Assembly (NCBI GenBank): GCA_016742275.1
Contig: JACVCD010000001.1
Location: forward strand, 248,001 to 312,000
Source of the DNA: Gemmatimonadaceae bacterium
Lineage (GTDB): Bacteria > Gemmatimonadota > Gemmatimonadetes > Gemmatimonadales > Gemmatimonadaceae
Length of the DNA: 64,000 nt
Reading direction: 5' to 3'
The first letter of the stretch is position 1; every line of letters starts with the position of its first letter. The position numbers and the translations under genes are program-made. The notes beneath the pieces were generated by a model. That model was not told where the DNA came from. It saw nothing but the letters and a program-made list of their open reading frames with translations, and did not search any database. Positions 3,176-62,555 of the stretch are shown here, piece by piece.

Positions 3176-4747
3176 TTACTGCCTGGGTGAGAGGCCGTCC
3201 ACCAAACTCGTGCGATAGGCCTTCCAGGCTGGCACAAATCCGATCAGCATGCCCGCGGCCATCACGATGCCGAGGTACATGTATTCGGTGCTGCCGAGTG
3301 CACGGAGCGCAAGATGGAGACCGAAGCGCTGCTCGACGGGCGCCTGCGCGAGCGCGAGTCCGCCATACACCAGTGCCACACCGATCACGCAGCCCAGGAA
3401 CGCCAGCAGCGTGCTTTCAAGAACGAGCAGCGACAGAATCATGCGCGGACCGGCACCAATCGCACGCAGAATGGCCATCTCACGACGACGGGCTTCGAGC
3501 GACGAGTAGAGCGACACCAGCATGCCGGTGATGCTGATGGCCACGGCGAACATCGCGATCACGCGGAGTCCGACTTCAGCGTTACCGATATTCTGCCACA
3601 GCTCACCCAGCGCTACGCCGGGGATGATCGCAGTAAGTGGCTCCACGAGATCGGTGTTCATCTCGCGCTGCAGCATCAGCGCTTCAAAGCGGTTCTTGGT
3701 GCCTACGAAGAACGCCGTGATCTGATCATCACCGTGATCGTGTTCTTCCTTGGCCGTGTCCGCAGGGGCAGCGGCAACGGTAGCGGCAGGCTTTGGCGCC
3801 ACACGCTTGGGGGCTGCAGGCGATGGCTGCTGCACCGTCGGCGGCGGCTCCGCCCCCGGCATCACGAGCGGCGTTCCTGGCGGCGGTGATGCACCGGGCA
3901 TCACCATGGGAGTTCCCGGTGGCGGCTCAGCGCCGGGCATCGCCATCGGCGTTCCCGCCGGCGGTGTAGTCGGCACCGTTGCCGGATCAATCCGAGGCCG
4001 CGGCGCTCGCCCCTTCGCTTCCGCAGTTTTTGCTTCCGCCGGTTTCGCTTCCGCCTTTGCTGCTTCCGCTGTTTGCTGCTGCACGACTGGCGCCTGCACC
4101 ATCGGCTCTTCCTCGTGCATCGCCTCTATCCCTTCCAGCGTCACATACACACTGCGATCAATCGGCGTGAATGTGCGCTCCAGGATACCAACCACCTTGA
4201 AGGGATGCGCCTCGTGGCTGGACGTGCCGATGTCCTGCAATCCATGCACAACCACCACCGGTGTGCCCACGGCGTACTTGAGTCGCTGCGCGACTTCGTA
4301 GCCAATCACCACATCAGTGTCGCCCGTTGCTGCGCCACCGGCGCTGAACGCCAGTGAGGCATTCTGTCGATAGCGATACCGCTCGAAGAATGCCGGTGTC
4401 GTACCGATCACGCGGAACCCGCGATGACTGTCGCCCAGCGAATACGGCACCACCCACTTCACGGCCGGATGCGCTTCCCAGTGTTCCATGGTGGACAGCT
4501 TCACACTGCCGGCGGGCGAGCCAATACCAAATACGGTGCTGAGCAGAATCTGCAGAGAACCGCCACGCGCACCGACAATGAGATCGACACCACGAATGGT
4601 GCCGGCAAAACTTTCGCGCACGCCGGCACGCACGGTCTCGATGCCCACCAGCAACGTCACACTGAGCGCGATCGACGCCACGGTAAGCCCGGTGGTCAGC
4701 AAACGACTGCGCAGCGAGGCAAGAGCCAATCGCAGAATGAGACTCAT
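3176..4747 (-). CDS. FtsX/MacB-type ABC transporter permease with a long low-complexity insert
   Basis: Encodes 523 residues. One N-terminal membrane segment (about 18-40), a large extracytoplasmic region and three C-terminal membrane segments (IAMFAVAISITGMLVSL, LLVLESTLLAFLGCVIGVAL, YLGIVMAAGMLIGFV) give the FtsX/LolC/MacB permease plan. Such proteins move lipoproteins or act as mechanotransmission pumps. The protein is about 100 residues longer than usual because of an Ala/Glu/Lys- and Pro-rich insert (about 210-330). The insert holds AEAK repeats, three GTPMxMPG-like repeats and a histidine/acid patch (EEHDHGDD). The AEAK part is encoded by a four-unit repeat arm, listed separately. The start overlaps the ATPase stop. 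It forms an operon with DUF3299. Confidence 0.85.
   Translation of the reverse strand: MSLILRLALASLRSRLLTTGLTVASIALSVTLLVGIETVRAGVRESFAGTIRGVDLIVGARGGSLQILLSTVFGIGSPAGSVKLSTMEHWEAHPAVKWVVPYSLGDSHRGFRVIGTTPAFFERYRYRQNASLAFSAGGAATGDTDVVIGYEVAQRLKYAVGTPVVVVHGLQDIGTSSHEAHPFKVVGILERTFTPIDRSVYVTLEGIEAMHEEEPMVQAPVVQQQTAEAAKAEAKPAEAKTAEAKGRAPRPRIDPATVPTTPPAGTPMAMPGAEPPPGTPMVMPGASPPPGTPLVMPGAEPPPTVQQPSPAAPKRVAPKPAATVAAAPADTAKEEHDHGDDQITAFFVGTKNRFEALMLQREMNTDLVEPLTAIIPGVALGELWQNIGNAEVGLRVIAMFAVAISITGMLVSLYSSLEARRREMAILRAIGAGPRMILSLLVLESTLLAFLGCVIGVALVYGGLALAQAPVEQRFGLHLALRALGSTEYMYLGIVMAAGMLIGFVPAWKAYRTSLVDGLSPRQ
4017..4069. repeat. Single four-unit GCTTCCGC arm inside the ABC permease gene
   Basis: Four exact GCTTCCGC units start at 4017, 4032, 4047 and 4062. 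The 15-base spacing keeps the reading frame. On the coding (minus) strand the units read GCGGAAGC and encode AEA at permease residues 227-229, 232-234, 237-239 and 242-244. The unit and the count of four match the intergenic palindrome arms at 48.7, 58.6 and 59.8 kb. Confidence 0.85.
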
Positions 4748-17360: not shown

Positions 17361-19255
<1,895 letters not shown>

Positions 19256-43285: not shown

Positions 43286-43338
43286 GCGGAAGCATCTGAA
43301 GGGCGGATGCGAAGGGGCGGAAGCAATCCATCGGAAGC
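43286..43338. repeat. Left four-unit GCGGAAGC arm flanking the four-helix-bundle gene
   Basis: Four units start at 43286 (GCGGAAGC), 43303 (GCGGATGC), 43317 (GCGGAAGC) and 43331 (TCGGAAGC), with spacing 17, 14 and 14. An AACAGCAAACAGC lead-in precedes them. The inverted partner arm is at 43879-43927, on the far side of the gene at 43419. Confidence 0.85.
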
Positions 43339-43418: not shown

Positions 43419-43838
43419 ATGAGCGATTGTCGGAATCTCCGGGTCCTTGATGCAACGGAGGACCTTGCTGCGACAGTGCTGAGTACCGTCGCAGCGGTCG
43501 ATGTGTTCAGGGCTCCCGGCATTCGAGGGCAACTGGTGCGCGCGGTTACCGCCATATCAGCCAACATTGCGGAAGCTGCCAACCTCGGCACCGATCCGAA
43601 CTTCAAGCGTCAACTGCGTCTCTCATTGGCCTCAGCCAACGAGGCCGGCAGTCACCTGCGTGTACTGTCGCGTACCGGTGCACTCGGGAAACCGCTCATT
43701 TTCCGCTGTGAAGCCAAACGCATTGTCGTCTGCAAGATGCTCGTCTCGCTCCTCCGGGCCATCGAGGAACGAGAGGCACACCGAGAAGCACAGCAGCGCG
43801 AGAGACTCCGTGGCGGCAGAAATACAAAACGGGAGTGA
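43419..43838 (+). CDS. Four-helix-bundle protein of the 23S rRNA IVP (S23) family
   Basis: Encodes 139 residues from the ATG at 43419, which gives MSDCRNLRVLDATEDLAATV. The diagnostic block QLVRAVTAISANIAEAANLG, then SANEAGSHLRVLSRTG, matches PF05635/TIGR02436 proteins. These were first found inside 23S rRNA intervening sequences in Leptospira and occur as scattered single genes in many genomes; a relative (Avd) binds RNA in diversity-generating retroelements. The molecular role of the free-standing members is unknown. The gene lies between two inverted four-unit GCGGAAGC arms, so it looks like the payload of that element. The C-terminus is a Glu/Arg-rich tail. Confidence 0.88.
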   Translation: MSDCRNLRVLDATEDLAATVLSTVAAVDVFRAPGIRGQLVRAVTAISANIAEAANLGTDPNFKRQLRLSLASANEAGSHLRVLSRTGALGKPLIFRCEAKRIVVCKMLVSLLRAIEEREAHREAQQRERLRGGRNTKRE

Positions 43839-43878: not shown

Positions 43879-43927
43879 GCTTCCGCCCAAAGCTTCCGCG
43901 TTCTCGCTTCCGCCCCCGTGCTTCCGC
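43879..43927. repeat. Right four-unit GCTTCCGC arm flanking the four-helix-bundle gene
   Basis: Four exact GCTTCCGC units start at 43879, 43892, 43906 and 43920 (spacing 13, 14 and 14, identical to the right arm at 48773-48821). A short T-run and CAGTTCTTGTTC follow. Together with the left arm it brackets the four-helix-bundle gene, about 640 bases end to end. Confidence 0.85.
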
Positions 43928-43943
43928 TTTTTACAGTTCTTGT

Positions 43944-45625: not shown

Positions 45626-45628
45626 ACC

Positions 45629-47191: not shown

Positions 47192-47206
47192 GGCGCTCCC
47201 ACCCTC

Positions 47207-47234: not shown

Positions 47235-47255
47235 GGACACGTTCGGCGAGGACGT

Positions 47256-48164: not shown

Positions 48165-48245
48165 AGTTCAGCTCGCCTGATTAAAGCGAGCTCATCCGTA
48201 AGTCGTTGTGTTGTGTGTAGTTCCGCAAACTCTTACAATTAAGGG

Positions 48246-48279
48246 ACGGCGGTTTCCCGGACGATCGGGCGACCGCCGT
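48246..48279 (+). terminator. Intrinsic terminator after the sigma gene
   Basis: ACGGCGGT (48246-48253) pairs with ACCGCCGT (48272-48279), with a second inner CCCG/CGGG stem. A short TTT follows at 48279-48281. It lies 81 bases after the sigma stop codon and 26 bases before the response regulator start. Confidence 0.65.
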
Positions 48280-48305
48280 TTCATGTCTGGACCGGAGTTG
48301 GTTGA

Positions 48306-48686
48306 GTGCCCCGTGCGTTGATCGTGGACGATGAAGCCGGTATTCGTTTTGCCCTCAAGCGCTGGTTTGAGCGACAGCAATGGACGGTAGACGAAGCCGA
48401 AGACGGAAATGCCGCCCTGGCGCTGCTTCGCAGCAGCACTGACGGGGCGACACCATACGATGTTGTTGTATGTGATCTGCATCTGCCCTACCTGAGCGGC
48501 GAAGCAATCGTCGGGTTGATGCGCAACGAGAACCCTGAACTGGCGCGTCGCATCATTCTCACGACCGGCGACGCGGTCACTGACGCCGAACCGGGGTCGA
48601 TTCTGGCCGAACATGCGTTCGTGCTCCAGAAGCCATTTGATCTGGCGACACTGAAGGAGACAGTCGCGAAGGTCACGGCGGGCTGA
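48306..48686 (+). CDS. Stand-alone response regulator receiver protein
   Basis: Encodes 126 residues, a single receiver domain, from the GTG at 48306. The acidic pair is D8/D9 in LIVDDE, the phospho-acceptor D57 in VVCDLHLP, the Thr of LTTGD and the conserved K109 in LQKPF. No output domain is attached, so it should pass or buffer phosphate as in CheY or Spo0F-type relays. No kinase is adjacent. The hybrid kinase at 32.5-36.3 kb carries a related receiver of its own. Confidence 0.9.
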   Translation: MPRALIVDDEAGIRFALKRWFERQQWTVDEAEDGNAALALLRSSTDGATPYDVVVCDLHLPYLSGEAIVGLMRNENPELARRIILTTGDAVTDAEPGSILAEHAFVLQKPFDLATLKETVAKVTAG

Positions 48687-48701
48687 CAGGAACAGCAAAA
48701 A

Positions 48702-48821
48702 GCGGAAGCCAAACGGCGGAAGCGAGTAGACGGAAGCAATGAGCGGAAGCCAAGGCGCGGATACCGCGTGTGGCTTCCGTTTTTTGCTTCCGCCCCGTCG
48801 CTTCCGCTTCAGTGCTACCGC
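48702..48821. repeat. Two-arm palindrome, four GCGGAAGC units each side, before glcD
   Basis: Left units start at 48702, 48716, 48730 (ACGGAAGC) and 48743. Right units start at 48773 (GCTTCCGT), 48786, 48800 and 48814 (GCTACCGC). For every opposed pair, left start plus right end is the same (97523), so spacers of 6, 6 and 5 bases face each other exactly although their sequences do not pair. The axis has CGCGG-ATA-CCGCG (48756-48768). AACAGC precedes and AGTTCAC follows. As RNA it would be a rod of 8-base-pair helices and symmetric internal loops. It ends 22 bases before the glcD ATG. Confidence 0.9.
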
Positions 48822-48843
48822 AGTTCACAGTTTATCTTCCACT

Positions 48844-50241: not shown

Positions 50242-51386
50242 GCGAGGTACTCGCCCAGCAGATCCGCGCGCATGTCGAATCGCGCACACCATTTCGCCCG
50301 ACAGGTAGCGGAACCTGGCTGCACGGTGGTGGCCCGTTTGCTGATGCCGCACACCTGGACGTGCGTGCGCATGCGCAGGGCGTGGTGGCGTATGAACCCG
50401 GCGATCTTGTCGCGACGGTCGGCGCTGGCACGACCTGGCAGGAATTATCGGACATCACAGCCGTGCACGGTCAGATGTTCGCCATTGCGCCATACGGTTC
50501 GCCGCATAGTACCATCGGCGCCATGGTGGCCACTGCGGCCAGCGCACCGCTGGCCTACGGTGACCTGCTGATGCGCGATCTGGTACTTGGCCTCACGGCC
50601 ATAACCTGTACCGAAACGGGCGAGCGCATTCGTGCTGGCGGACAGGTGGTCAAGAATGTGGCCGGCTTCGATTTGGTGCGGCTTTTTACGGGCGCATTTG
50701 GCACGCTGGGTGTCATCACCGAAGTCAGTCTGCGTCTGCATGCGCGTCCACCGCACGATGACATCGTGAGAGTGCCTCTCGCGCAGGATCTTGCCAGTGT
50801 ACTGCCACAGATCGTGGCCAATCGCGGTCCGGTTTCCCTGCTCATACACATGGCACCGGGACACACACCCGAGCTGTGGGCGCGCATCAGCGGAAACAAC
50901 TCACGCGTTGATGCATTGCGCACGCATGTCGCGGCGCTGGCCATGGCACTGGATAGCGCGTTGCATACGCACGGCACCGCCGACGCACCGCACGACACGC
51001 CGCTGTTTCACTCACCAGCCGATGCGATCGTGTTGCGTCTCCGTACGCCACGCAGTGATGCCGTGCCCTTCGTGACGGCAGCGCGTGAAGCGTTGCCGCA
51101 CGCCACACTGCAGTATCACGTGGAACGCGGCACGTTGCGCGCCATGATCCCCGCAGAACACACCACGCGCGTGGACAAGGACCTCGGCACGCTCTATCGC
51201 ATTGCCGCACAGTTTGGCGCCATGCATACCATCAGTGTGGCATGGGACCAGGGTCGCACTACGCCGGCACCACGCAGTCCGCTCGAGCGTCAGATCAAGC
51301 AACAGTTCGATCCGCATCACTGCTGCAATCGCTGGCGTTCGGCACCAGACGAGATTCCCGATCATCTCACGAGTTCTGCCGCATGA
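50238..51386 (+). CDS. glcE: Glycolate oxidase FAD-binding subunit GlcE
   Basis: Encodes 382 residues from the ATG at 50238 overlapping the glcD stop. A short PCMH domain is visible: TPFRPTGSGTWLHGGG, VATVGAGTTWQELSD, GSPHSTIGAMVATAAS and GGQVVKNVAGFDLVRLFTGA, the last being the GlcE hallmark. The C-terminal half is shorter than in GlcD and lacks the catalytic His block, as expected for the non-catalytic FAD subunit. It is translationally coupled to glcF. Confidence 0.9.
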   Translation: MSEVLAQQIRAHVESRTPFRPTGSGTWLHGGGPFADAAHLDVRAHAQGVVAYEPGDLVATVGAGTTWQELSDITAVHGQMFAIAPYGSPHSTIGAMVATAASAPLAYGDLLMRDLVLGLTAITCTETGERIRAGGQVVKNVAGFDLVRLFTGAFGTLGVITEVSLRLHARPPHDDIVRVPLAQDLASVLPQIVANRGPVSLLIHMAPGHTPELWARISGNNSRVDALRTHVAALAMALDSALHTHGTADAPHDTPLFHSPADAIVLRLRTPRSDAVPFVTAAREALPHATLQYHVERGTLRAMIPAEHTTRVDKDLGTLYRIAAQFGAMHTISVAWDQGRTTPAPRSPLERQIKQQFDPHHCCNRWRSAPDEIPDHLTSSAA

Positions 51387-52741
51387 GTACTTCTCATGAG
51401 ATGACACGGATGAACGAAGCGCGTTCGTGTGCCCTGCCCGGCACACCATTGGCACAGGCTGCAGCCGGACTCGATGCCTGCGTGCACTGCGGGTTCTGTC
51501 TGCAGGCCTGCCCCACGTACGTGAATCTTGAAGACGAAAACGATTCACCGCGTGGCCGCCTCGTGCTGATGCGTCGTCTACTCGATGGCGACATCGCTCC
51601 CACCGATCCCGATATCGGTCAACACCTCGATCGCTGCCTCGGCTGCCGCGCCTGCGAAACCGCCTGTCCGTCGGGTGTGCCCTACGGGGAACTGATCGAA
51701 GCCACGCGCGCCACACTCGCGCCGATTCGCGGCCTGCCCCTCGTGGCACGTCTCATTCTGCGCGTGTTCCGCGTGCACGTGGTGTTGCACACGGCCCTGT
51801 TCTTCGCGCGCCTTTTCCGCAACACCCGTATTCCCGAACTACTCGCGCGCCACGTGCCGCGTCGCCTGGGCTTCCCGCTCGCGATGCTCGCCAGCACCAG
51901 AGCGCGCAGCATCCCCGTCGCTCCTCTCGTCAATTCGCTTCCGCCCACCTCGCTTCCGCCATCAAAGCTTCCGCCCGTCACGCTTCCGCAGTCTGCTGCT
52001 TCAACCAGTCTGTTGACCGGCTGCGTCATGCACGGTCTCCTTCGCCACGTCAATCACGCAACCGAAGAGACACTGGCCCACAACGGCTTCACCCTCACCG
52101 CCACACCGGGTCAACGTTGCTGTGGCGCGCTGCATGCCCATGCGGGTGACATTGAAGCGGCGCGTGAACTCGCACGCCAGAACATTGCGGCCTTCGAACG
52201 CAGTAACCCCGATACCATCGTGGTCAATGCGGCCGGTTGCGGCGCCATGTTCAAACAGTACGGTCATCTGCTGCAGGACGATCCTGTCTGGGCCGCGCGC
52301 GCTTCCATCATTTCAGCAAAAACACGTGATGTAAGTGAGCTGCTAGCCACTACCGGCCCTGTACCTGGCTTACAGCCTGTGCCCGTGCGTGTCACGCACG
52401 ATCCACCGTGCCATCAGATGCATGCACAGCGTGTGGTGACACAACCGATGAAGGTGCTGCAATCCATTCCGGGCCTTGAGTTGGTTCCGCTCGAGGACGC
52501 CGATCAGTGCTGTGGCAGCGCCGGCATCTACAATCTCGTGGAGCCTGACACATCGGATGCGGTGCTGTCTCCCAAGCTGCGACGCATCGCGGAAACGCAC
52601 GCGCAGGTGCTGGCCACCGGAAACCCAGGGTGCATGATGCAGTTGGGTGCCGGACTCCATCTGACCGGATCCGATACCATCGTCAAGCATCCGGTGGAGT
52701 TGTTGGCCGAGTCCTATCGCGGCGGCACTCGACCAGCGTAG
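51383..52741 (+). CDS. glcF: Glycolate oxidase iron-sulfur subunit GlcF, with in-frame repeat insert
   Basis: Encodes 452 residues from the ATG at 51383. Two [4Fe-4S] motifs lie near the N-terminus: C33, C36, C39, C43 (CVHCGFCLQACP) and C85, C88, C91, C95 (CLGCRACETACP). Two C-terminal CCG domains follow (GQRCCGALHAHAGD and DQCCGSAGIYNL). The subunit carries electrons from the FAD subunits to the respiratory chain. Residues 185-203 (SLPPTSLPPSKLPPVTLPQS region) join the two halves and are encoded by a four-unit GCTTCCGC arm, probably a DNA insert tolerated in a linker. Confidence 0.92.
   Translation: MSTSHEMTRMNEARSCALPGTPLAQAAAGLDACVHCGFCLQACPTYVNLEDENDSPRGRLVLMRRLLDGDIAPTDPDIGQHLDRCLGCRACETACPSGVPYGELIEATRATLAPIRGLPLVARLILRVFRVHVVLHTALFFARLFRNTRIPELLARHVPRRLGFPLAMLASTRARSIPVAPLVNSLPPTSLPPSKLPPVTLPQSAASTSLLTGCVMHGLLRHVNHATEETLAHNGFTLTATPGQRCCGALHAHAGDIEAARELARQNIAAFERSNPDTIVVNAAGCGAMFKQYGHLLQDDPVWAARASIISAKTRDVSELLATTGPVPGLQPVPVRVTHDPPCHQMHAQRVVTQPMKVLQSIPGLELVPLEDADQCCGSAGIYNLVEPDTSDAVLSPKLRRIAETHAQVLATGNPGCMMQLGAGLHLTGSDTIVKHPVELLAESYRGGTRPA
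51937..51989. repeat. Single four-unit GCTTCCGC arm inside glcF
   Basis: Four exact GCTTCCGC units start at 51937, 51952, 51967 and 51982, at 15-base spacing, so each is read in the same frame as S/x-L-P-P/Q. AGTCTGCTGC follows, like the AGTTC end of other arms. The 7-base spacers differ from each other. It lies in the linker between the ferredoxin-like and CCG parts of GlcF. Confidence 0.9.
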
Positions 52742-53326
52742 TTGAACGTGCCAGCCACCATCATCGCCTTCGACGGCGCGTTGTTCGATACACTGCCGGC
52801 ACGACGCGCCGCATTGCAGGATGCACTACAGGCGGAAGGAGCGCGGGTCGAAGACAGCGCCCTCGACCTCCTGCTGCCGGGGCGTACATTCGGAGAAGTC
52901 GTGAGCGCACTTGATGCGTTTACTCATGATCCGACAAGCGCCGATCTCGTACTGCTGCGGGTACAGCGACTCTACGCCGCGATTGTCGCGCACGGAGTCC
53001 GTCTCATGCCGGACGGCATGAACGTGCTTCGCGATGCACAACGCGCAGGACACCGTATCATTCTGAGGGCGGACAGTGATCGCCGTCATGTGGAAGCACT
53101 GCTGACACTTTCCGGGCTTGAGACCGGCGTCAATGTGGTGCGCTGTGCCGATGATCCGCCGCGAGGGCCTGCGCCGTCACTGACACGAAGCTGGGAAGTG
53201 ATTCATGAACGCCTCACCAGATTCGCAATTCCGGTAGTCGAGCGGTTCGCCTATGAAGCAACGGAGCGCACCCTTGCCGCTGCTGGGGAAGTCGTCCTAT
53301 CGGGGACCGTAGCCACTCCGCACTAG
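52742..53326 (+). CDS. HAD-like protein lacking the nucleophilic Asp
   Basis: Encodes 194 residues from a TTG at 52742 (a GTG at 52748 is also possible). The overall plan is that of a small HAD phosphatase of the phosphoglycolate type: motif I, helical cap (about 20-95), motif II near IILRADSDRR, and a C-terminal core. Motif I reads IIAFDGALFDTL: where FDLDGTL is usual, the nucleophile Asp is Ala9 while the second Asp (D11) remains. Phosphatase activity by the HAD mechanism is therefore unlikely. Its place directly after glcDEF suggests a derived phosphoglycolate phosphatase, now perhaps a binding or regulatory protein. Confidence 0.7.
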   Translation: MNVPATIIAFDGALFDTLPARRAALQDALQAEGARVEDSALDLLLPGRTFGEVVSALDAFTHDPTSADLVLLRVQRLYAAIVAHGVRLMPDGMNVLRDAQRAGHRIILRADSDRRHVEALLTLSGLETGVNVVRCADDPPRGPAPSLTRSWEVIHERLTRFAIPVVERFAYEATERTLAAAGEVVLSGTVATPH

Positions 53327-53373
53327 ATTCAAATCAGGTTCTTCGCTGCTGTCCTGCTCCATCGAGTCACGTC

Positions 53374-54444
53374 ATGTCCGACACGCCCGAACTGTTGTTT
53401 CCGCCGCCGCTCACTGCGGACGATGCAGAATCGTATCTCGATCTTCGCCGCCGCGCGGTGTGGTTCGAAGCGCAGAATCACTGGAGCCTTATCACGGGCC
53501 CGAGTGCCGCTGACGCGCTCAATGGTCTCGTCACCAACGACGTGGCCGCGCTTGAAGTGGGGCGCGGTCAGCATGCCATCGCATTGACCGCCAAGGGCAA
53601 GGTGGTGTGCGATATGTACATCGCACGTCTCGATGATCAGTCGTTCCTGTGTACGGTCATTCGTGACAGTGCGGCGGCATGGCTGGCTATGGCGCGCAAG
53701 TACATCAATCCTCGGCTCGCCAAGGTGGTCGACGATCATGAGTCGTGGGCGACCTGGATGGTGTTTGGTGCGCAGGCCGCAGAAGCCATTGCAAGCCTGG
53801 GCGGACCCTCGGAAGAAGCCGATTCACCCGATGCATTGGCTGCGCGCATAACACGACTCGAGCAATGGCCGGTCTGGGGACATGCCCCATGGGTGATCGG
53901 TTCTGCCACGGTGCGCCTCATCCGGGCCCCCGTCATGGGCGCGCTGCCGGGTTTCGTGATTCTTGCGCGCGCCGAAGACCGCTCGTTCATCCAGTCGCAA
54001 CTCGCGGCCTCGCCATATCGTCGCGGCAGCCGGTCGGTCTGGAACGTGGCGCGCATCGAAGGAGGCCGTCCGGCATTTGGCGTGGATATGGACGACAACA
54101 CCATCCCGCAGGAAGCCAACCTCGACGTGCTGGGCGCCATCTCCTTCACCAAGGGCTGCTATACGGGCCAAGAGACGGTGGCGCGGGTGCACTTCCGTGG
54201 GCATGTGAACCGCCATCTGCGGGGTCTTCGCGCCACCGAGCCTCTGCCGCAACACGCCCGGGTCCTGGATGAAGCGGGCAAGGATGTGGGGGACGTGCGC
54301 AGTACGGTCATTTCGCCTCGCCTGGGCCCCATCGCCATGGCCATGATCCGCCGAGAGGTCGTCCCCGGTTCGCCCGTTCGCGTCCAGCTCGGGAGCCGGG
54401 AGATTGTCGCGGAAACGGTGGCTCTCCCCTTCGAGGGGAACTAG
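53374..54444 (+). CDS. ygfZ: Folate-binding Fe-S cluster repair protein YgfZ/GcvT-like
   Basis: Encodes 356 residues. The GcvT fold binds tetrahydrofolate, and YgfZ helps to build or repair certain Fe-S proteins. The signature KGCYTGQE is at residues 260-267 (C262 is the conserved redox Cys), followed by TVARVHFRGHVNRHLRGL. The N-terminal half has VTNDVAALEVGRGQHAIAL as in GcvT relatives. The presence of this gene after an Fe-S containing oxidase operon is suggestive but may be chance. A strong hairpin follows the stop. Confidence 0.9.
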   Translation: MSDTPELLFPPPLTADDAESYLDLRRRAVWFEAQNHWSLITGPSAADALNGLVTNDVAALEVGRGQHAIALTAKGKVVCDMYIARLDDQSFLCTVIRDSAAAWLAMARKYINPRLAKVVDDHESWATWMVFGAQAAEAIASLGGPSEEADSPDALAARITRLEQWPVWGHAPWVIGSATVRLIRAPVMGALPGFVILARAEDRSFIQSQLAASPYRRGSRSVWNVARIEGGRPAFGVDMDDNTIPQEANLDVLGAISFTKGCYTGQETVARVHFRGHVNRHLRGLRATEPLPQHARVLDEAGKDVGDVRSTVISPRLGPIAMAMIRREVVPGSPVRVQLGSREIVAETVALPFEGN

Positions 54445-54466
54445 GGCGCTCGTTGGAGTAAATACA

Positions 54467-54499
54467 AAGCGGGCGGGAGACCAGGTCTCCCGCCCGCTT
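54467..54499. terminator. Bidirectional intrinsic terminator
   Basis: AAGCGGGCGGGAGACC (54467-54482) and GGTCTCCCGCCCGCTT (54484-54499) form a perfect 16-base-pair inverted repeat, with a loop formed by the few central bases. TTCATC follows on the plus side and TTTGTATTTA on the minus side. It lies between the convergent ygfZ and the small lipoprotein gene and should stop both. Confidence 0.9.
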
Positions 54500-54529
54500 C
54501 ATCAGTCAGCCAGGCTGACTACAAGCTTC

Positions 54530-54709
54530 TTAGTGCTTGGTCGTGTCGGCGGCCGAATCCGGCTTGGCCGTCGTGTCGACAGCGGCCGAATCCGCAACCG
54601 GCGCCGCAGCGGCCGGGGCGGCCAGAGCGGTGTCAGCGGCCGGGGCCTCTTCCTTGGCGGAGCAGGCGGCGAGCACGAGTGCAGCAGCGACGAGGGCGAT
54701 GCGCTTCAT
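54530..54709 (-). CDS. Small Ala/Asp-rich lipoprotein
   Basis: Encodes 59 residues from the ATG at 54709, preceded by GGAG. The signal peptide MKRIALVAAALVLAAC ends in the lipobox LAAC, so the Cys becomes lipid-modified. The mature part consists only of Ala, Asp, Thr, Pro, Lys and Glu (for example AADTALAAPAAAAPVADSA) and has no fold. Similar short lipoproteins are common in the phylum; their role is unknown. A strong terminator follows. Confidence 0.75.
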   Translation of the reverse strand: MKRIALVAAALVLAACSAKEEAPAADTALAAPAAAAPVADSAAVDTTAKPDSAADTTKH

Positions 54710-54957
54710 GGAGAACTCCAACGGTGCGGTGTAAGCTCCGTGCGTCCTGAAAAGCGCACGGCCCCCTCGGCGGATTTGCCGACGGGGATCTTGCACATCC
54801 AAAGTACCGGTAGAGAACACTGTGTCAAGTGAGACTTCGTGTTAAGAATCACGGCAGAGCCAGCCGTGCAAAGTCTTGCCACACAAGCATTTTCCGACTG
54901 TCACACGGTGACGGGTCCTCGCCGGACCTGCGCCAACCACCTCTTCCATCCAGGCTC

Positions 54958-56403
54958 GTGTCCAGACTTCCTGACACCCTCGGCGCGCTCAAGCGTTCCG
55001 GCTACGCCACTAACCGCCCCGCATCTGTCAAAGATGAGATTCGGCGAAACCTGATTGCCCGCATTCAGGATGGTGGACCGCTTTTCCGCGGAGTGCTTGG
55101 ATATGAAGACAGCGTGATGCCCCAAATTGTTAATGCGCTGTTGGCGCGGCACAATTTCATCCTGCTCGGACTGAGGGGTCAGGCCAAGTCACGTATCCTG
55201 CGTGCACTTGTCTCACTACTCGATGAAGTCATGCCCATCGTCGCCGGCAGTGAAGTAAACGACGATCCATTTCGTCCTATCAGCAAGTACGCGCGCAATC
55301 TGCTGCAGGAGCATGGGGACGACACGCCCATTGCCTGGGTGTCGCGTGATCAACGCTTCGTGGAGAAACTCGCCACACCGGATGTGACTGTTGCCGACAT
55401 CATTGGTGATGTGGATCCCATCAAGGCGGCACGTGGCGGGCATCTGCTGAGCGATGAGCTCACGATTCACTATGGCATGTTGCCGCGCGCGAATCGTGGT
55501 GTGTTTGCACTCAACGAATTGCCCGATCTCGCCGGCAAGGTGCAGGTGGGACTGTTCAATATCATGCAGGAAGGTGATGTGCAGATCAAAGGCTATCCGG
55601 TGCGGCTCGCATTGGATGTGCTGCTCTGCTTCACCGCCAACCCTGAAGACTACACGGCGCGTGGCAAGATCATCACGCCACTCAAGGATCGCATTGGCAG
55701 CGAAATTATCACGCACTACCCCGAACAGGTGGAGCTGGGTGTGCAGATCACACAGCAGGAGGCGTGGACCAATCGCGGCGACAGCGTCGACATTCGTGTA
55801 CCGGATTTGATTGCCGAAGTCGTAGAGCGTGTGGCCTTCGAAGCCCGGGATGACAAGCGCATCGACAAGCGCAGTGGTGTGTCGCAGCGAATGCCCATCA
55901 CGGCCATGGAGAACGTGGTATCGAACGCCGAGGCACGCGCACTGAGACAGGGCGATCGCGAAGCGGTTCCACGCATTGCCGATGTGTATGCGGCGCTGCC
56001 GGCCATCACGGGCAAGATCGAACTCGAGTACGAAGGTGAGCTCGTTGGCGGTGCAGCCATTGCCCGCGAACTCATTCGCCGTGCTTGTCATGCCACACTT
56101 GAAGCACGCACCGGCCACATCGACACCGATGGCATCGTGATGTGGTTCGATCAGGGCAGCGCGTTGCAGGTGGGCGACGACATTTCCATGAGTCTCGTGC
56201 GCCAGGGCTTTGATGTCGTCCCGGGACTGGTGGATATCGTGACCCATCTCGGTCTCGCACCCCAGGACGATGACGCGCTGGTCGTGGTGGCGTGCGAACT
56301 GGTACTTGAAGCCCTCGTAGCGCGCCGCAAGATCTCGCGCTCGGAAGCGGGCACGTATGGCCGCGCCGAGCGGGAAACGCGAAGGAAGCGGGACGATTAT
56401 TAA
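54958..56403 (+). CDS. MoxR/ChlI-like AAA+ ATPase
   Basis: Encodes 481 residues if the GTG at 54958 is the start (MSRLPDTLGALKRSGY); the frame is open upstream to 54829, but that part is not homologous in style. The AAA+ core has Walker A GLRGQAKS (71-78), a Walker B-like GVFALNELPDL and sensor segment LCFTANPEDYTARGKIITPL, DRIGSEI. This is the magnesium-chelatase-I/MoxR class of ATPases, which work with VWA-domain partners. A VWA protein of the right type is at 61281, 5 kb away. The substrate complex is not known. Confidence 0.85.
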   Translation: MSRLPDTLGALKRSGYATNRPASVKDEIRRNLIARIQDGGPLFRGVLGYEDSVMPQIVNALLARHNFILLGLRGQAKSRILRALVSLLDEVMPIVAGSEVNDDPFRPISKYARNLLQEHGDDTPIAWVSRDQRFVEKLATPDVTVADIIGDVDPIKAARGGHLLSDELTIHYGMLPRANRGVFALNELPDLAGKVQVGLFNIMQEGDVQIKGYPVRLALDVLLCFTANPEDYTARGKIITPLKDRIGSEIITHYPEQVELGVQITQQEAWTNRGDSVDIRVPDLIAEVVERVAFEARDDKRIDKRSGVSQRMPITAMENVVSNAEARALRQGDREAVPRIADVYAALPAITGKIELEYEGELVGGAAIARELIRRACHATLEARTGHIDTDGIVMWFDQGSALQVGDDISMSLVRQGFDVVPGLVDIVTHLGLAPQDDDALVVVACELVLEALVARRKISRSEAGTYGRAERETRRKRDDY

Positions 56404-56446
56404 CGAGACATATCTTGTTAATCTGCCATATAGGAAATTTTCTTAG

Positions 56447-56477
56447 CCTTCGGGATTCCTCATCCCCCTCCCGAAGG
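56447..56477 (+). promoter_or_regulatory. Hairpin covering the ribosome binding site of the TonB receptor gene
   Basis: CCTTCGGGA (56447-56455) and TCCCGAAGG (56469-56477) form a perfect 9-base-pair stem ending one base before the ATG at 56479. The likely Shine-Dalgarno GAAGG is the end of the 3' strand, so it would be hidden when folded. This could limit translation or be opened by a factor. Confidence 0.6.
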
Positions 56478-56478
56478 C

Positions 56479-58563
56479 ATGAAAAAACTCTCCGCCCTCA
56501 CATCGTTCCTGTTGCCCGCTGTTCTCCCTGTCACGCTGGAAGCCCAGCAGCGCGACACCTCTGCACGCAACATTGAACCCGTGTCGGTGCGCGGTTCCCG
56601 TGCACCATCAGTGACCGGAGGCGCCACGAGCGTGGTGATCCGTCCTGATTCACTGCCAGTTCCACTGCTGGCCGCTCCGCAACTGGCTGACGTACTGCGT
56701 CAGACAGCCTTCGTTCTGGTTCGCCAGAACTCGCGCGGTGAAATGGAGATCGGTGTGCGTGGCAGCGACTCGCGTCAGGCCGCCGTGCTGCTGGACGGTC
56801 TCCCGCTCACCATTGGTTGGGATTCCCGCACCGATCCGTCGCTGCTTCCCACAACCGGTATCGAAACGATCACCGTCGTGCGCGGTCTGTCGAGTGTACT
56901 CGGCGGCGCCAACACGTTGGGCGGCATCATCCGCATGGACCTCAATGCCCCCGTTTCGCGCAACACGCCCCAGACGGCGTCACTGCGCGTCGGCACCGGC
57001 ATCGATCAGTACAGCGGACGCGTGATCTCGGCCAACGGTGTCGCACCGTTCAGTGTGGGCAACGGTACACTGCGCATTCGTGGTGGCATCACGTCGCGCG
57101 CACGTGACGGTTTCGCGCTCTCGGGCGGTGACGCGGGCGATGGCTTCACCGGCGGCGCTGCTGATCCGGGTGATGCCGGCAACTCCAAGCTTCGCACCAA
57201 CACTGACCAGAAGCAGCTCGATGGTTTTGCTGCCCTGCGCTGGGATCACAACTCCGGCGCGTACATCGGTGTCACGGCCACCGGATACGACACCGAACGT
57301 GGTGTCGCACCGGAACAGCACATCACGGCGCCGCGCTATTGGCGCTATCCGTCGCAGACCCGTACGCTCGGCATGGTCAATGCCGGTACCGGTGTGCGAA
57401 AGACACCGCTCGGTTTTGGTTCGCTGTCGGCGAGTGCGGGCACATCGAAGCAGGAACTCGAAATCGAGACGTACGCCAACCGGCAGTACGCCACGGTGTC
57501 GGCGCGTGAACTTGGCTCCGAACGCAGCAACATTGCGCGCATTGAAGGATCGCACTCGTTGCCGCTCAACATGCAGTTGCGTGTTGCCGCCACGAGCAGC
57601 GATGTGCAGTACGATGAAACACTGGCCGCCGAAAATCCGGCGTCGGTGGCCACACGGTATCAGCAGAAGCTCACGAGCTTTGGTGCGGAACTCGATTTGC
57701 CGTTGTTCTCGCGCTTCCTGCTGAGTGGTGGTGTGGTGCAGGATGAAGCCAAGACGCCGAAGACCGGCGGCCGCACGTCGCTCGGCACGCTCACGCAGAC
57801 CGGCTGGCGCGTGGGTTCGACGTTCAAGGTGAACGACGGTGTGCGTCTTCATGCTTCAGTGAGCGAGCGTGCGCGTTTTGCTGCGCTGCGCGAGCTCTAC
57901 AGCGGCGCACTCAATCGCTTTGATCCCAATCCCAATCTGCTCCCGGAAACGTTGCTCGGCTTTGAAGCCGGCGTGACGCTCGACGGCGGTGTGTTCGCAG
58001 AAAAGGGACTGCAGATGCAGCTGGTCGGCTTTGCCCATCGTCTCGATGACGCCGTCGTGCGTATCACGCTGCCGAACCGTCTCTTCCGTCGCATCAACCG
58101 CGACGAGATCAAGAGCCAGGGCGCCGAAGCATTGGTGTCGTGGACACCGTCAGGCCTGCGCGGCACAACGTTCACGGGCGATGCCACGCTGCAGCGCATC
58201 CGTGTGTACGATCAGACGATCACGAGCGGCAGCAATGAACGCTTCCCCGAGCACAACCCGGAGCGTCGCGCATCACTGGCCGTGATCTCGCCCGCCTTCG
58301 CCGGCATCCGCGCCAGCGCCATGGCGCGTCACATCGGCACGCAGTACTGCCAGCATCCCGACCTCGGCCGTCAGGTCGAACTCAAGTCGCAGACCATCGG
58401 TGACGCCGCCCTGCAGCGTGGCTTCAGCGTGCGCCGCGGCGGACTACTGCAGCGCCTCACCGCGCTGGTCGCGATGGACAACGTGGGCAACGTGACGGCG
58501 TACGATCAGTGCGGACTGCCTCAGGCGGGAAGGACACTGCGGTTTGGGCTGACGCTGCAGTAA
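56479..58563 (+). CDS. TonB-dependent outer-membrane receptor
   Basis: Encodes 694 residues. A signal peptide (MKKLSALTSFLLPAVLPVTLEA) precedes a plug domain (about 35-150), with APQLADVLRQTAFVLVRQNS, GVRGSDSRQAAVLLDGLPL and VVRGLSSVLGGANTLGGII, the typical plug motifs. The rest is the 22-strand barrel, ending in LRFGLTLQ. Receptors of this fold import iron chelates, cobalamin or other large molecules; the ligand is not evident. The upstream leader has a hairpin over the ribosome binding site. The stop TAA is followed by a palindromic repeat. Confidence 0.9.
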   Translation: MKKLSALTSFLLPAVLPVTLEAQQRDTSARNIEPVSVRGSRAPSVTGGATSVVIRPDSLPVPLLAAPQLADVLRQTAFVLVRQNSRGEMEIGVRGSDSRQAAVLLDGLPLTIGWDSRTDPSLLPTTGIETITVVRGLSSVLGGANTLGGIIRMDLNAPVSRNTPQTASLRVGTGIDQYSGRVISANGVAPFSVGNGTLRIRGGITSRARDGFALSGGDAGDGFTGGAADPGDAGNSKLRTNTDQKQLDGFAALRWDHNSGAYIGVTATGYDTERGVAPEQHITAPRYWRYPSQTRTLGMVNAGTGVRKTPLGFGSLSASAGTSKQELEIETYANRQYATVSARELGSERSNIARIEGSHSLPLNMQLRVAATSSDVQYDETLAAENPASVATRYQQKLTSFGAELDLPLFSRFLLSGGVVQDEAKTPKTGGRTSLGTLTQTGWRVGSTFKVNDGVRLHASVSERARFAALRELYSGALNRFDPNPNLLPETLLGFEAGVTLDGGVFAEKGLQMQLVGFAHRLDDAVVRITLPNRLFRRINRDEIKSQGAEALVSWTPSGLRGTTFTGDATLQRIRVYDQTITSGSNERFPEHNPERRASLAVISPAFAGIRASAMARHIGTQYCQHPDLGRQVELKSQTIGDAALQRGFSVRRGGLLQRLTALVAMDNVGNVTAYDQCGLPQAGRTLRFGLTLQ

Positions 58564-58577
58564 GGCAACAGCAAACT

Positions 58578-58691
58578 GCGGAAGCGTAACAGCGGAAGCG
58601 AAAGGCGGAAGCCAAACCCGGAAGCGAAGGCCCGGGACTTGGCTTCCGCTTTTTTGCATCCGTTACTTCGCGTCCGCTGGTTCGCTACCGC
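58578..58691. repeat. Two-arm palindrome between the TonB receptor and rfbB
   Basis: Left units start at 58578, 58592, 58605 and 58618 (CCGGAAGC), spacing 14, 13 and 13. Right units start at 58642 (GCTTCCGC), 58656 (GCATCCGT), 58670 (GCGTCCGC) and 58684 (GCTACCGC), spacing 14 each. CCCGGG lies at the axis. AACAGCAAACT precedes the left arm, and CGTTCGCTGTTC follows the right. The last unit overlaps the stop codon of rfbB (58685-58687). Confidence 0.9.
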
Positions 58692-59725
58692 CGTTCGCTG
58701 TTCAAATACCAACGTACCGTGTCGCTTACACCTAACTCAAAGGTTGTCGTCGCCTGCATTCCCATCTCTGTCTGCAGGCGATTTCCGTTCAACGCGTATC
58801 GCCGGTCGTGTCCCAATCGATCAGTCACATGCAACACCAGTGATATGCAAGCCACTCCCCTGGCCGCTGGGCAATTCGGATAGCGCTCGGCCAACGTGAG
58901 GTCGGCGGCAAACGCCGCATCGATTGCTGCGCATAGCGTGTGGACCACCTCGAGATTGCTGCACTCGTAGTTGCCGGCGAGGTTGTACGACCCGTGGGCT
59001 GATGGGGAGTTCAGCAAGCCGGTCAGCATACGCGCATGATCGGTCACATGCAGCCACTCACGTCGCTGCAGACCATCACCGTATACGGGCAGCGACTCAC
59101 CAGCCAGCGCGCGAGTGATCATGAGCGGCATGAGCTTCTCTGCATGCTGCCATGGGCCGTAGTTGTTGGCGCAATGCGTCATCACATACGGCAATCCGAA
59201 TGTGTATCCCCAGCTCCGCACCAGATGATCGGCGGCTGCTTTGCTCGCCGCATAGGGAGAGCTGGGCCGATATGGTGCGGACTCAGTCACCGGTGCGGCG
59301 TTGGCATCGAGCGGTCCGAACACCTCATCGGTGCTCACATGGTGAAATCGCACACCATCCCGCCATACACCATTCCGCTGCCATGCCGCACGTGCCGCAT
59401 CGAGCAGCACCTGCGTCCCCACCACATTTGTGCGCACAAACGCCGCCGGCCCGGCAATGCTGCGATCTACATGCGATTCGGCCGCGAGATGCAGCACTCG
59501 TGTGATGTCGTGGTCGGCGAATACACGATTGACCGCGTCTAGGTCAGCCACATCGCCGTGTATCAGCGTCACCTGCCCCGATTGCTCGAGTGACGACAGC
59601 CCCTCGCGACGCGAGGCGTACGTAAGTGCATCGAGCACCACCACGCGTTCACTCGCGTGGCGCGCACACCAGTGATGCAGGAAGTTGAGGCCGACAAAGC
59701 CGGCACCACCGGAGATCAGGAGCAT
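58685..59725 (-). CDS. rfbB: dTDP-glucose 4,6-dehydratase
   Basis: Encodes 346 residues. RfbB makes dTDP-4-keto-6-deoxyglucose, the first committed step to rhamnose and other deoxysugars of surface glycans. The NAD Rossmann motif is GGAGFVGLNFLHHW, the active-site Tyr and Lys are in YAASKAAADHLV, and HVSTDEVFG holds the catalytic acidic pair. Other rml genes are not in the window. The last codons and stop (SERR, TAG) are encoded within a palindromic repeat unit, so the repeat may have redefined the C-terminus. A second repeat stands just upstream. Confidence 0.9.
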   Translation of the reverse strand: MLLISGGAGFVGLNFLHHWCARHASERVVVLDALTYASRREGLSSLEQSGQVTLIHGDVADLDAVNRVFADHDITRVLHLAAESHVDRSIAGPAAFVRTNVVGTQVLLDAARAAWQRNGVWRDGVRFHHVSTDEVFGPLDANAAPVTESAPYRPSSPYAASKAAADHLVRSWGYTFGLPYVMTHCANNYGPWQHAEKLMPLMITRALAGESLPVYGDGLQRREWLHVTDHARMLTGLLNSPSAHGSYNLAGNYECSNLEVVHTLCAAIDAAFAADLTLAERYPNCPAARGVACISLVLHVTDRLGHDRRYALNGNRLQTEMGMQATTTFELGVSDTVRWYLNSERR

Positions 59726-59743
59726 GGGAAAGACTCAAGGCTT

Positions 59744-59883
59744 GTGAACTGCAAACTGCGGAAGCGCAGGGGCGGAAGCGATAGACGGAAGCCAAGAGCG
59801 GAAGCCAACTCGCGGTCCCGCGAATGGCTTCCGAGCGTTTGCTTCCGCCACCTCGCTTCCGCTTCTCCGCTTCCGCAGTTCAC
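59744..59883. repeat. Two-arm palindrome between rfbB and the MFS gene
   Basis: Left units start at 59758, 59772, 59785 (ACGGAAGC) and 59798 (spacing 14, 13 and 13, as at 58.6 kb). Right units start at 59827 (GCTTCCGA), 59841, 59855 and 59869 (spacing 14 each). The ends are exact complements: GTGAACTGC (59744-59752) and GCAGTTCAC (59875-59883). The axis has CGCGG-TC-CCGCG (59811-59822). This is the most complete copy and defines the probable element borders. Confidence 0.92.
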
Positions 59884-59885
59884 CC

Positions 59886-61241
59886 TCAGATCTCCCGCCA
59901 AAACCGTCCTCGTCTCCATGCCACCGCCGACGCTCCTGCCAGCACCACCGCACTCGCCCCAATCGCATGCGATGCCGTAATCGCCCGCGCCAGCGCACCA
60001 AGTGCAAATGCCCCCACAGCCTGCGACAACCCCACAAACACCAGCGAATAGAACGCCATCAATCGACCGCGGAATCGCTCTTCGACCAACAGCTGCAGCA
60101 CGCCGTTACTAAGCGCATTGAACATGATCATGGCCCCTCCCGTGAGCAGCAGCAGCACATAGGCAAGCCACAACACCTGCGTGTACGCAAACGCCAGCAG
60201 CAGCACAGGAAACATCAATGCCGCTCCAATCAGTACTGGCCCCTTGTGTGCACGATGCGACACGGGCCCAGCCACCAACAGAGCGCCAATGAGTCCACCA
60301 ATGCCCAACATCGCCAACAGCGCCCCGTAGCCCTCTGCGCCAAGCCCCAGCTGATCGCGCGCTACCACCGGCATGATGGAGATGAACGGCCCGCCGAGCA
60401 CCGCACCAATGGTGACGAGTATCAACAACTCGCGCACGGAACCCGGTTGCATGAGATGCCGCAGCCCCTCGACCGCACCATCGGTAGTCTGCCGCAATAT
60501 CGTCCGCAGCCCACGCCCGCCCCCTTCGCTTCCGCTAGTTGGCATCCGCAACTTCGCTTCCGCCCCCTCGCTTCCGCTGTTCACTGTTCCTTCAAGCCTG
60601 ATTCGCGACAACCCAAACAGCACCCACCCAAACGACACCGCATTCAACCCAAAACACCACGCGATCCCCAACTTCCCGATCACTATGCCGCCCACTGCCG
60701 GCCCCAGCACACGCGCCAGATTGAATCCACTTGAGTTGATGGCAATGGCGGGCTGCAGGTCATTGCGTCCCACCAACTGAATGATGAGACTCTGCCGTGC
60801 CGGAATCTCCACCGCACTCAGGCATCCCTGCACAAGAGACAGGACCACCAGGAACGCGATCGACACGTGTCCAGTCACAGTCACCGCGAATAGCACAGCC
60901 GCCTGCAGGAGAAACAGCGCCTGCGTGATGCGCACGATACAGAGCTTGTTGCCGAGGTCTACTAGCGCGCCCGCATGCATGCTGAAGAGCACGATGGGGA
61001 CAGCGCCCATGCTGGCCACGAGACCAACGATGAACGCCGAGTTGGAGAGCTCGAGTGAGAGCCAGCCAACGGCCATCGTCTGCATCCACGTCCCGATGAG
61101 CGACAGCGTTTGCCCGGTCCAGAACACCCGGAAGTTCCGGTGCTCGCGCAGCACTCGGAACGGATTGCGGGAGCCGGCCTGCTCCCCTGCCGCTTGTTCC
61201 TCGGCGGGATCGCTTTCGCTGCTTCGCGCGTACAAACTCAT
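59886..61241 (-). CDS. MFS transporter of the enterobactin-exporter-like family, with repeat insert
   Basis: Encodes 451 residues from the ATG at 61241; a longer start at 61292 is possible. Twelve membrane segments are expected. The N-terminal FRVFWTGQTLSLIGTWMQT and the A-box-like QGCLSAVEIPARQSLI are typical of the MFS_3 group (EntS-like exporters). The loop between halves (about 219-240) contains an insert encoding SGSE, AEA, LRMP and SGSE units, derived from a four-unit GCGGAAGC arm. The substrate is unknown. It lies upstream of rfbB in the same direction, with a palindrome between. Confidence 0.88.
   Translation of the reverse strand: MSLYARSSESDPAEEQAAGEQAGSRNPFRVLREHRNFRVFWTGQTLSLIGTWMQTMAVGWLSLELSNSAFIVGLVASMGAVPIVLFSMHAGALVDLGNKLCIVRITQALFLLQAAVLFAVTVTGHVSIAFLVVLSLVQGCLSAVEIPARQSLIIQLVGRNDLQPAIAINSSGFNLARVLGPAVGGIVIGKLGIAWCFGLNAVSFGWVLFGLSRIRLEGTVNSGSEGAEAKLRMPTSGSEGGGRGLRTILRQTTDGAVEGLRHLMQPGSVRELLILVTIGAVLGGPFISIMPVVARDQLGLGAEGYGALLAMLGIGGLIGALLVAGPVSHRAHKGPVLIGAALMFPVLLLAFAYTQVLWLAYVLLLLTGGAMIMFNALSNGVLQLLVEERFRGRLMAFYSLVFVGLSQAVGAFALGALARAITASHAIGASAVVLAGASAVAWRRGRFWREI
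60528..60577. repeat. Single four-unit GCTTCCGC arm inside the MFS gene
   Basis: Units start at 60528 (GCTTCCGC), 60542 (GCATCCGC), 60556 and 60570, at the standard 14-base spacing. TGTTCAC follows, as at the ends of the intergenic elements. Because 14 is not a multiple of three, successive units are read in different frames on the coding strand: SGS, AEA, RMP, SGS. The total still keeps the gene open. It lies in the central cytoplasmic loop. Confidence 0.9.
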
Positions 61242-61280
61242 GGGGTGAAGGTTAACGGGGCGCGGTCGACCGGAGAGCGC

Positions 61281-62555
61281 ATGCGGTTTCACACGTATAC
61301 CAAGTTCAACCCGCAGCTATCGGATGCGGTGGACCTGCAGGCGCTGCTCGACCAGCTGGCCGACTTCCTGCTGCAGTCGGGCTTTGCCGGCGGCGGTAGT
61401 GGCAACTACTGGGGCGAACCCGGTGATGAGCCCGATCGGTCACTCGATGCCCTGAAGGAAGCCATTCTGCAGGCGCTTATTGAGAGCGGACAGATCACGC
61501 CGGAGATGCTGCAGGCCCTGCGGGGCGAGGGCGATGAGGTGAGCGAGGAGAAACTCGCGCAGCTGCTCGATGGCCTGGTGCAGCGTCTCATGCAGGACGG
61601 GTTTCTCAGCATGAATGGCGACGGAGATCCTGATGCCAATCGTCCGGTCACCGGCAAAGGGTCAATCTCTCAGGCGGCCGCCCGTGATGTGCAGTTCTCG
61701 CTTACGTCCAAGGGTACGGATTTCCTGGGCTTCAAGACGCTGCGTCATCTGCTTGGCAGCTTCGGCAAGAGCAGCATCGGCAGTCACGACACACCGCAGT
61801 TGGCGACAGGTGTGGAGAGTGATGCGTGGAGCAAGCCGTACGAGTTTGGCGATACGCTGAATCTTGATGTGCCGGCTACACTGGCCAACGCGTTGGGTCG
61901 CACGGGATCGCTCGATGTGCCGATCGATCTCGACTACACCGATCTCATGGTGCGACAGAGTGAGTTTCGGTCGAGCTGCGCCACGGTGCTGATGCTCGAC
62001 TGTTCGCACAGCATGATTCTGTATGGCGAAGATCGGTTCACGCCCGCCAAGAAAGTCGCACTGGCCCTGACCCATCTCATTCGCACGCAGTTTCCTGGCG
62101 ACACCATTCGTGTGGTGCTCTTCCACGACAGCGCGGAGGAGATCCCCATGGCCACGCTGGCCGGGTCACAGGTGGGACCGTATCACACCAATACAGCTGA
62201 AGGACTCAAGCTCGCTCGTCGCCTGCTGCTCGCGCAGAAGAAGGACATGCGCCAGATCATCATGATCACGGATGGCAAGCCGAGCGCGCTGACCATGCCC
62301 GACGGGCAGATCTACAAGAACTCCATGGGTCTCGACGGCTACGTGATTGCCGAAACACTGCGTGAGGTGGCCGCCTGCCGGAAGAGTGGCATCATGATCA
62401 ACACCTTCATGCTGGCCCGCGACCGGGCGCTCGTGGAGTTCGTGAAGCGCGTAAGTGAGATCAGCCGCGGCAAGGCGTACTTCACCAATACCATGAGCCT
62501 CGGGCAGTTCGTGCTCATGGATTTTCTCAAGCGAAAGACGAAGCGGGTGAGCTGA
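61281..62555 (+). CDS. VWA-domain protein, probable partner of the AAA ATPase
   Basis: Encodes 424 residues from the ATG at 61281, chosen because homologous-looking sequence begins with [20 protein letters not shown]; the frame is open further upstream inside the divergent gene. The N-terminal half is helical and acidic. The von Willebrand A domain (about 230-424) has an intact MIDAS: D240, S242 and S244 in MLDCSHSM, and later ITDGKPSAL. This type usually works with MoxR/ChlI-like ATPases in metal insertion or complex assembly. The MFS gene starts 39 bases away on the other strand. Confidence 0.85.

Follow-up and report, generated by a model that had tools for sequence, protein, structure and literature searches.

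The four-unit repeat arm inside an MFS exporter gene is a half-hairpin at an already shared site and not a fresh insertion. It belongs to a repeat family that is dispersed in the 4.57-Mb genome (G000) containing the window, i.e. the whole stretch of 64,000 nucleotides analyzed here, and the same sites are largely occupied by other repeats in the two nearest relatives, G001 and G022, and in G021. The simplest interpretation is that these sites were inherited, whereas the repeats in them were replaced throughout the genome between the lineages of G000 and G001. This is a pattern of concerted evolution, for which neither a Y1 transposase nor a consistent reverse transcriptase was found. The partner of the hairpin family would be a vertically inherited gene for an S23 (PF05635) four-helix-bundle protein, which is located between the same arms (Table 1).

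Table 1. Repeat copies, their sites and the associated genes in the window.
Feature	Position	Strand	Remarks
Coding arm, four units, steps of 15 nt	4017..4069	+	AEA frame, minus-strand ORF
Palindrome of the second S23 family	17363..17752	.	its S23 gene at G000:C29:114893 (L148)
Left arm beside S23 gene, site A-left	43286..43338	-	
S23/four-helix-bundle gene, putative resident partner of the family	43420..43838	+	PF05635, TIGR02436
Right arm beside S23 gene, site A-right	43879..43927	+	
Palindrome, site B	48690..48834	.	between response-regulator and FAD-linked oxidase genes; three different families across four genomes
Four-unit arm, steps of 15 nt, site C	51937..51989	+	in frame in GlcF-like Fe-S protein gene 51242-52741
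Palindrome, site D1	58566..58705	.	between convergent TonB-receptor and dTDP-glucose-dehydratase genes; arms 58578-58625 and 58642-58691
Palindrome 3' of MFS stop, site D2	59744..59883	.	arms 59758-59805 (-) and 59827-59876 (+), four units each
MFS exporter gene with the arm inside	59886..61292	-	ORF, Pfam
Four-unit arm (GCTTCCGC/GCATCCGC, 14-nt steps), site E	60528..60577	+	in frame, MFS central loop
Outer border TGTTCACTGTTC	60578..60589	+	common to intergenic copies

The units of the MFS arm begin at 60528 (GCTTCCGC), 60542 (GCATCCGC), 60556 and 60570 (both GCTTCCGC), which bears out the 14-base steps described in the first-pass annotation, and the array is detected by TRF with a score of 59. 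In the minus-strand ORF, which matches the Pfam families MFS_3 (1.3e-55) and MFS_1 (1.7e-31), the arm is translated as VN[SGSEGAEAKLRMPTSGSE]GGG. Each unit is indeed read in a new frame (SGS, AEA, RMP, SGS), as had been stated, and the reading frame of the gene remains intact across the three steps. The intergenic type of border had also been recognized correctly, since TGTTCACTGTTC directly follows the arm, and the palindrome previously placed just past the end of the same gene is real (RNA fold z = -10) and lies directly 3' of the stop codon. Folded alone, the MFS arm gives no fold (RNA fold z = -0.25).

The same annotation regarded the arm as closest to a raw, unmodified insertion, a reading which stood in part. 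Among 20 same-genus orthologues (five weak MFS matches were left out, and L065 is a fragment without the loop), 18 have no arm and the loop is clearly shorter in 16 of these 18; a repeat-free orthologue with the same loop sequence was not seen. Hence, the view that a repeat arm has been added to the central loop was upheld. The notion of a fresh insertion was not, because the two remaining orthologues, those of G001 and G022, hold in the same loop and in frame a complete hairpin of a different family, the one associated with their own S23 genes. Therefore, the site was occupied already in the common ancestor, or it represents a repeated target. In the comparison of orthologue loops neither a target duplication nor an exact insert border was definable at the MFS arm, because the repeat-free loops fail to align at the base level. 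Neither the position of the S23 gene between two arms of the family nor the lineage-specific exchange of copies at shared sites had been noticed in the first-pass annotation.

The family to which the arm belongs is abundant. The exact pattern GCTTCCGC-N4-9-GCTTCCGC occurs 66 times in the window genome compared to two occurrences of the reversed control pattern, no other 8-mer of the window is as frequent as GCGGAAGC (39 copies), and a query with the MFS arm found 29 places in G000. Moreover, 14 of the 66 pairs are situated within 20 kb of the S23 gene, where 0.58 are expected. A set of 43 arms was collected from the window and 20 further stretches of the same genome. Exactly four units are present in 36 of them, and only 56 of 1392 unit bases (4%) deviate from the consensus, whereas spacers of equal length have 33-42% of their bases in common, corresponding to 58-67% pairwise difference. 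Intergenic arms are usually arranged as outward-pointing pairs about a small GC-rich tip, which results in a long hairpin with internal loops, and many of these palindromes abut stop codons or separate convergent genes. A search of the region 43200-61000 against Rfam gave no match. In a seven-unit array at L096:2146-2237, four identical spacers in a row (AGTCTC) point to a recent local duplication of units, and a near-perfect 15-nt tandem repeat, GGCGCGAACGCGTCA, is found at 20889-20937 (97% matches).

The comparison of genomes is based on the block 32474-62555, which is colinear (inverted) with G001:C6 and, to the contig limit, with G022:C30, and mostly colinear with G021:C19. The S23 gene has an identical locus in these four genomes, and the sites that are occupied in G000 are largely occupied in the other three, each with the repeat of its own lineage. 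The S23 gene of G001 and G022 is flanked on either side by a complete hairpin that belongs to another word family; the same hairpin type recurs in these genomes at site B, at site D 3' of the MFS stop and, in frame, in the MFS loop (site E), while related words are found in frame in GlcF (site C). Different families occupy the same site in three lineages at B, in three at C, where they lie in frame at the same place of GlcF in the four genomes, and in two at D and E. In G021, sites B and C contain the arm word of the G021 S23 gene, CCCGCAGTACGTCTT, three and four times, respectively, despite the fact that the abundant dispersed GCTTCCGC family of this genome (37 pairs) resembles but does not equal its S23 arms (GCGGGAAGACTTACT). 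The MFS loop of G021 is short, and no palindrome was found in its gap between MFS and the next gene. No such repeat was found at sites B, C, D2 and E of G020, a genome with three S23 genes, none of them in this block.

These relations are also reflected in repeat similarity, for which the element boundaries were set by hand; the separate comparison of site C in G001 and G022 was made by eye. Copies within one genome reach 0.43-0.45, compared to a background of 0.095. Between G000 and G001, copies at the same site (0.207) are as unlike as copies at different sites (0.227), whereas same-site copies of G001 and G022 show a similarity of 0.671. Since copies are alike within a genome and same-site copies are unlike between G000 and G001, the sites appear to be inherited and their contents replaced. 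The sites of the S23 family in the syntenic block match one to one between G000 and G001, except for D1 and D2, to which a single palindrome corresponds. In G000, a dTDP-glucose 4,6-dehydratase gene (58685-59725) is located between D1 and D2, and homologues of it adjoin the MFS gene in G020 and G021. In the MFS-TonB interval of G001 and G022, there is a single palindrome and no dehydratase gene, and a probable loss of this gene by deletion between two palindromes is proposed for them. An empty site was considered in the comparison of G001 with G022 and rejected, because the insert in G022 is a patchwork of other hairpins without a clean border. Another element rich in hairpins, with words of the CCACGGATTCCGCGGACAACA type, is present in G001 and G022 (L254:5672-5960, L252:10876-11123).

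It might alternatively be assumed that mobile elements repeatedly and independently hit hot spots such as gene 3' ends and hydrophilic loops, in which case the sharing of sites would be convergent. The frequent position of palindromes at stop codons agrees with this assumption, as does a fourth, 15-nt family (GAACTACGCGAGGGG), since in G017 and G008 its hairpins begin 3 nt past the point where the MFS match ends, or overlap this point; this occurrence in another clade favours hot spots, and fixed hot spots that are hit again and again would yield part of the same picture. However, the two in-frame sites are common to several lineages at the same protein position (the MFS loop and, in three lineages, GlcF), the sites of the G000/G001 block match one to one with the exception mentioned, and the copies of G001 and G022 were inherited site by site. 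We therefore regard independent insertion as unlikely, albeit with a real chance of being correct. Several GAACTACGCGAGGGG-type hairpins are located 3' of the MFS gene in G008, G017 and G005 (L115:1212-4674, L109:7251-8514, L108:6567-8054). An S23 gene of the GAACTACGCGAGGGG-type family was not found, and words of the GAACTACG family were not found at 29 S23 loci (L153-L181).

The S23 ORF of the window matches PF05635 (6.7e-13, 49.2 bits at a cut-off of 33.8) and the TIGR02436 four helix bundle protein (6.9e-15, 55.2 bits, cut-off 24). Its predicted model consists of four helices (pLDDT 95.6) and has its best PDB match in 2gsc (XCC0516, a pentameric protein), but it also matches BT_0352 (2rld) and, more weakly, the DGR protein Avd (8ub7_E, TMt 0.81; 4dwl_D, TMt 0.85). 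The gene is situated between an Omp85-type gene and a pyridine-nucleotide oxidoreductase gene (43944-45065) that adjoins the right S23 arm. The latter gene is also a neighbour of a cobalamin adenosyltransferase gene, in G020 as well, and was not found in the compared stretches of G001, G022 and G021. The window genome contains six S23 genes. Inverted repeats enclose four of them, with a different family at each. Each of the three S23 arm families that were searched is dispersed in G000, with many copies on the contig of their own S23 gene; the family of L148 was found at 16 places including the palindrome at 17363, and that of L150 at 22 places, nine of them on the same contig as its S23 gene.

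The association of S23 genes with inverted repeats is not restricted to this genome. PF05635 is present in 28 of 30 genomes of the genus, and the best bridging inverted repeat scores at least 40 at 35 of 45 S23 loci from eight genomes (L149 was dropped as it lies at a contig end, whereas L188 and L191 were counted as above 40, no ORF being needed) versus 14 of 733 control intervals; with a score of at least 80, 26 S23 loci compare to 9 control intervals. The control windows overlap, and the 14 positives stem from only five loci (L106, L108, L109, L115, L120); in the four inspected, the arms are hairpins of repeat families. In a sample from Bacteroidota, Acidobacteriota, Chloroflexota and other Gemmatimonadota, from which six of 30 loci with cut flanks were left out, 13 of 24 S23 loci are bridged versus 2 of 738 control intervals, and 8 of 18 when only loci outside Gemmatimonadota are counted. 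The arms of this sample often consist of short tandem words, e.g. AGTGAAC. The bridging counts were confirmed by a recheck guarding against N stretches, and most of the genomes compared are MAGs. No bridging repeat above the threshold was found at 10 of the 45 S23 genes of the genus, and the score stayed below 40 at 11 of the 24 loci elsewhere. Five of the ten arm-less genes (L147, L185, L190, L202, L206), from five genomes, have a similar FRKL/HRKL N-terminus and possibly represent a domesticated form. Across genomes, arm similarity tracks S23 identity (Spearman 0.447 for 463 pairs among 33 elements, a value reached in none of 2000 permutations); L188, L191 and L221, for which a wrong ORF was picked, and elements scoring below 40 were left out here. 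In random stretches of S23-poor and S23-rich genomes, the hairpin counts are small: none in about 57 kb of G018, one in about 99 kb of G007 (without the all-N contigs L309, L317 and L321), four in 200 kb of G015 and three in 200 kb of G044.

Ordinary RecA-type gene conversion among dispersed repeats might also homogenize such families, with S23 being a passenger in one of the copies. The clustering of the copies is in line with this possibility, and so is the fact that neither a Y1 transposase nor a consistent reverse transcriptase was found. It leaves unexplained, however, why S23 genes lie between inverted repeats in several phyla and why the arm sequence tracks the S23 lineage, and it does not predict the combination of conserved words with variable spacers. 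Gene conversion without contribution of S23 is, hence, also an unlikely explanation in our opinion, though one to be taken seriously.

Coding and noncoding arms differ in their architecture. All steps measure 15 nt in 14 of 15 coding arms, but in none of the 28 noncoding ones (Fisher p 1.9e-10; arms were assigned by hand from codon scores, and 12 of 13 coding arms remain all-15 without the weak calls L105 and L100:2287), while 22 of 28 noncoding but only 2 of 15 coding arms are paired into hairpins (p 6e-5). The MFS arm is unpaired like most coding arms, yet it is the only one of the 15 with the intergenic step of 14 nt. The hairpins might alternatively act as terminators or mRNA-stability elements that are bound by S23, so that the sites co-evolve with the S23 specificity by selection. 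Their position directly past stop codons and between convergent genes, the strong folding of the three intergenic hairpins tested (z -8.4 to -10) and the conservation of words but not of spacers are compatible with such a regulatory function, whereas the sole coding arm folded alone gives no stable structure, and the altered unit numbers and steps of many sites could hardly arise via independent substitutions, making this function a rather doubtful explanation of the pattern. Finally, it is scarcely credible that the coding arms are low-complexity linkers (AEA, SGS, LPP) resulting from protein-level selection or chance, because, despite their location in Ala/Pro/Ser-rich loops, the same 8-mer is translated in several frames and on both strands and its pairs outnumber the control by 66 to 2, which in essence refutes this reading.

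We consider it rather probable that S23-assisted overwriting of hairpins explains the data as a whole, with the MFS arm as a half-copy. The S23 protein may bind single-stranded hairpin RNA or DNA at the repeated words and may help new hairpin versions to overwrite existing hairpins, either by homing or by gene conversion with host enzymes. Overwriting would occur most often near the S23 gene, and at coding sites mainly those versions would persist that keep the frame and are unable to form a long hairpin. The MFS arm could then be a half-copy that has retained the intergenic step while its net length preserves the frame. Such a role of S23 is suggested by the position of its gene, its co-divergence with the arms and the likeness to Avd, and S23-assisted overwriting is the process that we regard as most likely. 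The arm-less S23 copies, the imperfect match between family and arms in G021 and the GAACTACGCGAGGGG hairpins that a different clade has at the 3' end of its MFS gene speak against overwriting. More tentatively, S23 genes in general might belong to a so far unrecognised class of hairpin repeats that extends across phyla. Such repeats would need neither transposase nor reverse transcriptase but would spread by homing into existing copies and overwriting them, and their populations would change jointly at fixed sites, also at coding ones; the rRNA intervening sequences, as well as some of the known heptamer repeats, could then be regarded as special cases of this class. A DGR-type adenine mutagenesis, suggested by the A-free units and the variable spacer positions 1, 4 and 6 in G021, was rejected as general mechanism, because the words of G001 vary at other positions and G001 has no match to a reverse transcriptase.

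S23 proteins have known structures, but we know of no role for them, and the link to lineage-specific hairpin repeats would offer a testable function. It would also suggest how rRNA intervening sequences, and perhaps further dispersed repeats made of short words, have originated. Moreover, repeats within protein genes shift in step with repeats elsewhere in the genome, and how homogeneity is maintained without a transposase becomes a question that is open to direct experiment.

Among the known systems, REPIN/RAYT has a similar organization in that dispersed hairpin repeats constitute a population within the genome and are accompanied by a partner gene that is inherited vertically (PMC8049555). 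The window family shares both features. However, the protein of its partner gene is a four-helix bundle for which no catalytic site is known, and its sequences are replaced in concert at fixed sites. REPs appear to differ from the window-family arms, which are built of four 8-nt words in steps of 13-15 nt. Membership in REPIN/RAYT was rejected, because no match to the Y1/RAYT transposase (PF01797) was found in the four genomes G000, G001, G022 and G021, while it was found in 5 of 14 control genomes. RVT_1 is absent from six of eight genomes including G001, with one weak match in G000 and one in G021, and no DGR template/variable repeat pair was recognised. Hence, the family is accounted for neither by transposition of the RAYT type nor by retrohoming as in DGRs. 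PF05635 is said to resemble Avd (PMC10053308), and the window S23 protein is Avd-like at the level of structure, as judged from the match of its predicted model to this DGR accessory protein.

In 23S rRNA intervening sequences (IVS), the S23 gene is enclosed by terminal inverted repeats; the terminal stem of the Coxiella IVS measures 28 bp, and its S23 ORF is adjoined by tandem heptamers (GACAGAT) (PMC4990558). The window S23 gene likewise lies between inverted repeats. Unlike in the 23S rRNA IVS, this gene and its three same-locus orthologues are found among protein genes and not in rRNA, and the family has dispersed copies without a gene. Regarding MITEs, inverted repeats are present in the window family, no target-site duplication is definable, and the search for a parent transposase covered the Y1 type. 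Rickettsia palindromic elements (RPE) are palindromic repeats that are kept in frame within protein genes, like the window family; to our knowledge, neither a partner gene nor concerted replacement at shared sites is known for them. In the open-licence literature searched, with partial coverage, no link of S23 genes to dispersed repeats beyond IVS was found, nor was a prior description of the same-site, lineage-specific repeat pattern. Tandem arrays of short words are also known from intergenic and genic regions of Xanthomonas (heptamer GGGAATC) and Geobacter metallireducens (heptamer GGGACCG). These repeats were compared by description, and unlike for the window family, no link to S23 is mentioned in the passages searched. 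Xanthomonas campestris contains 70 inverted pairs, and for 90% of its repeats the ORFs on both sides are the same in two species (PMC4692102, PMC2700814).
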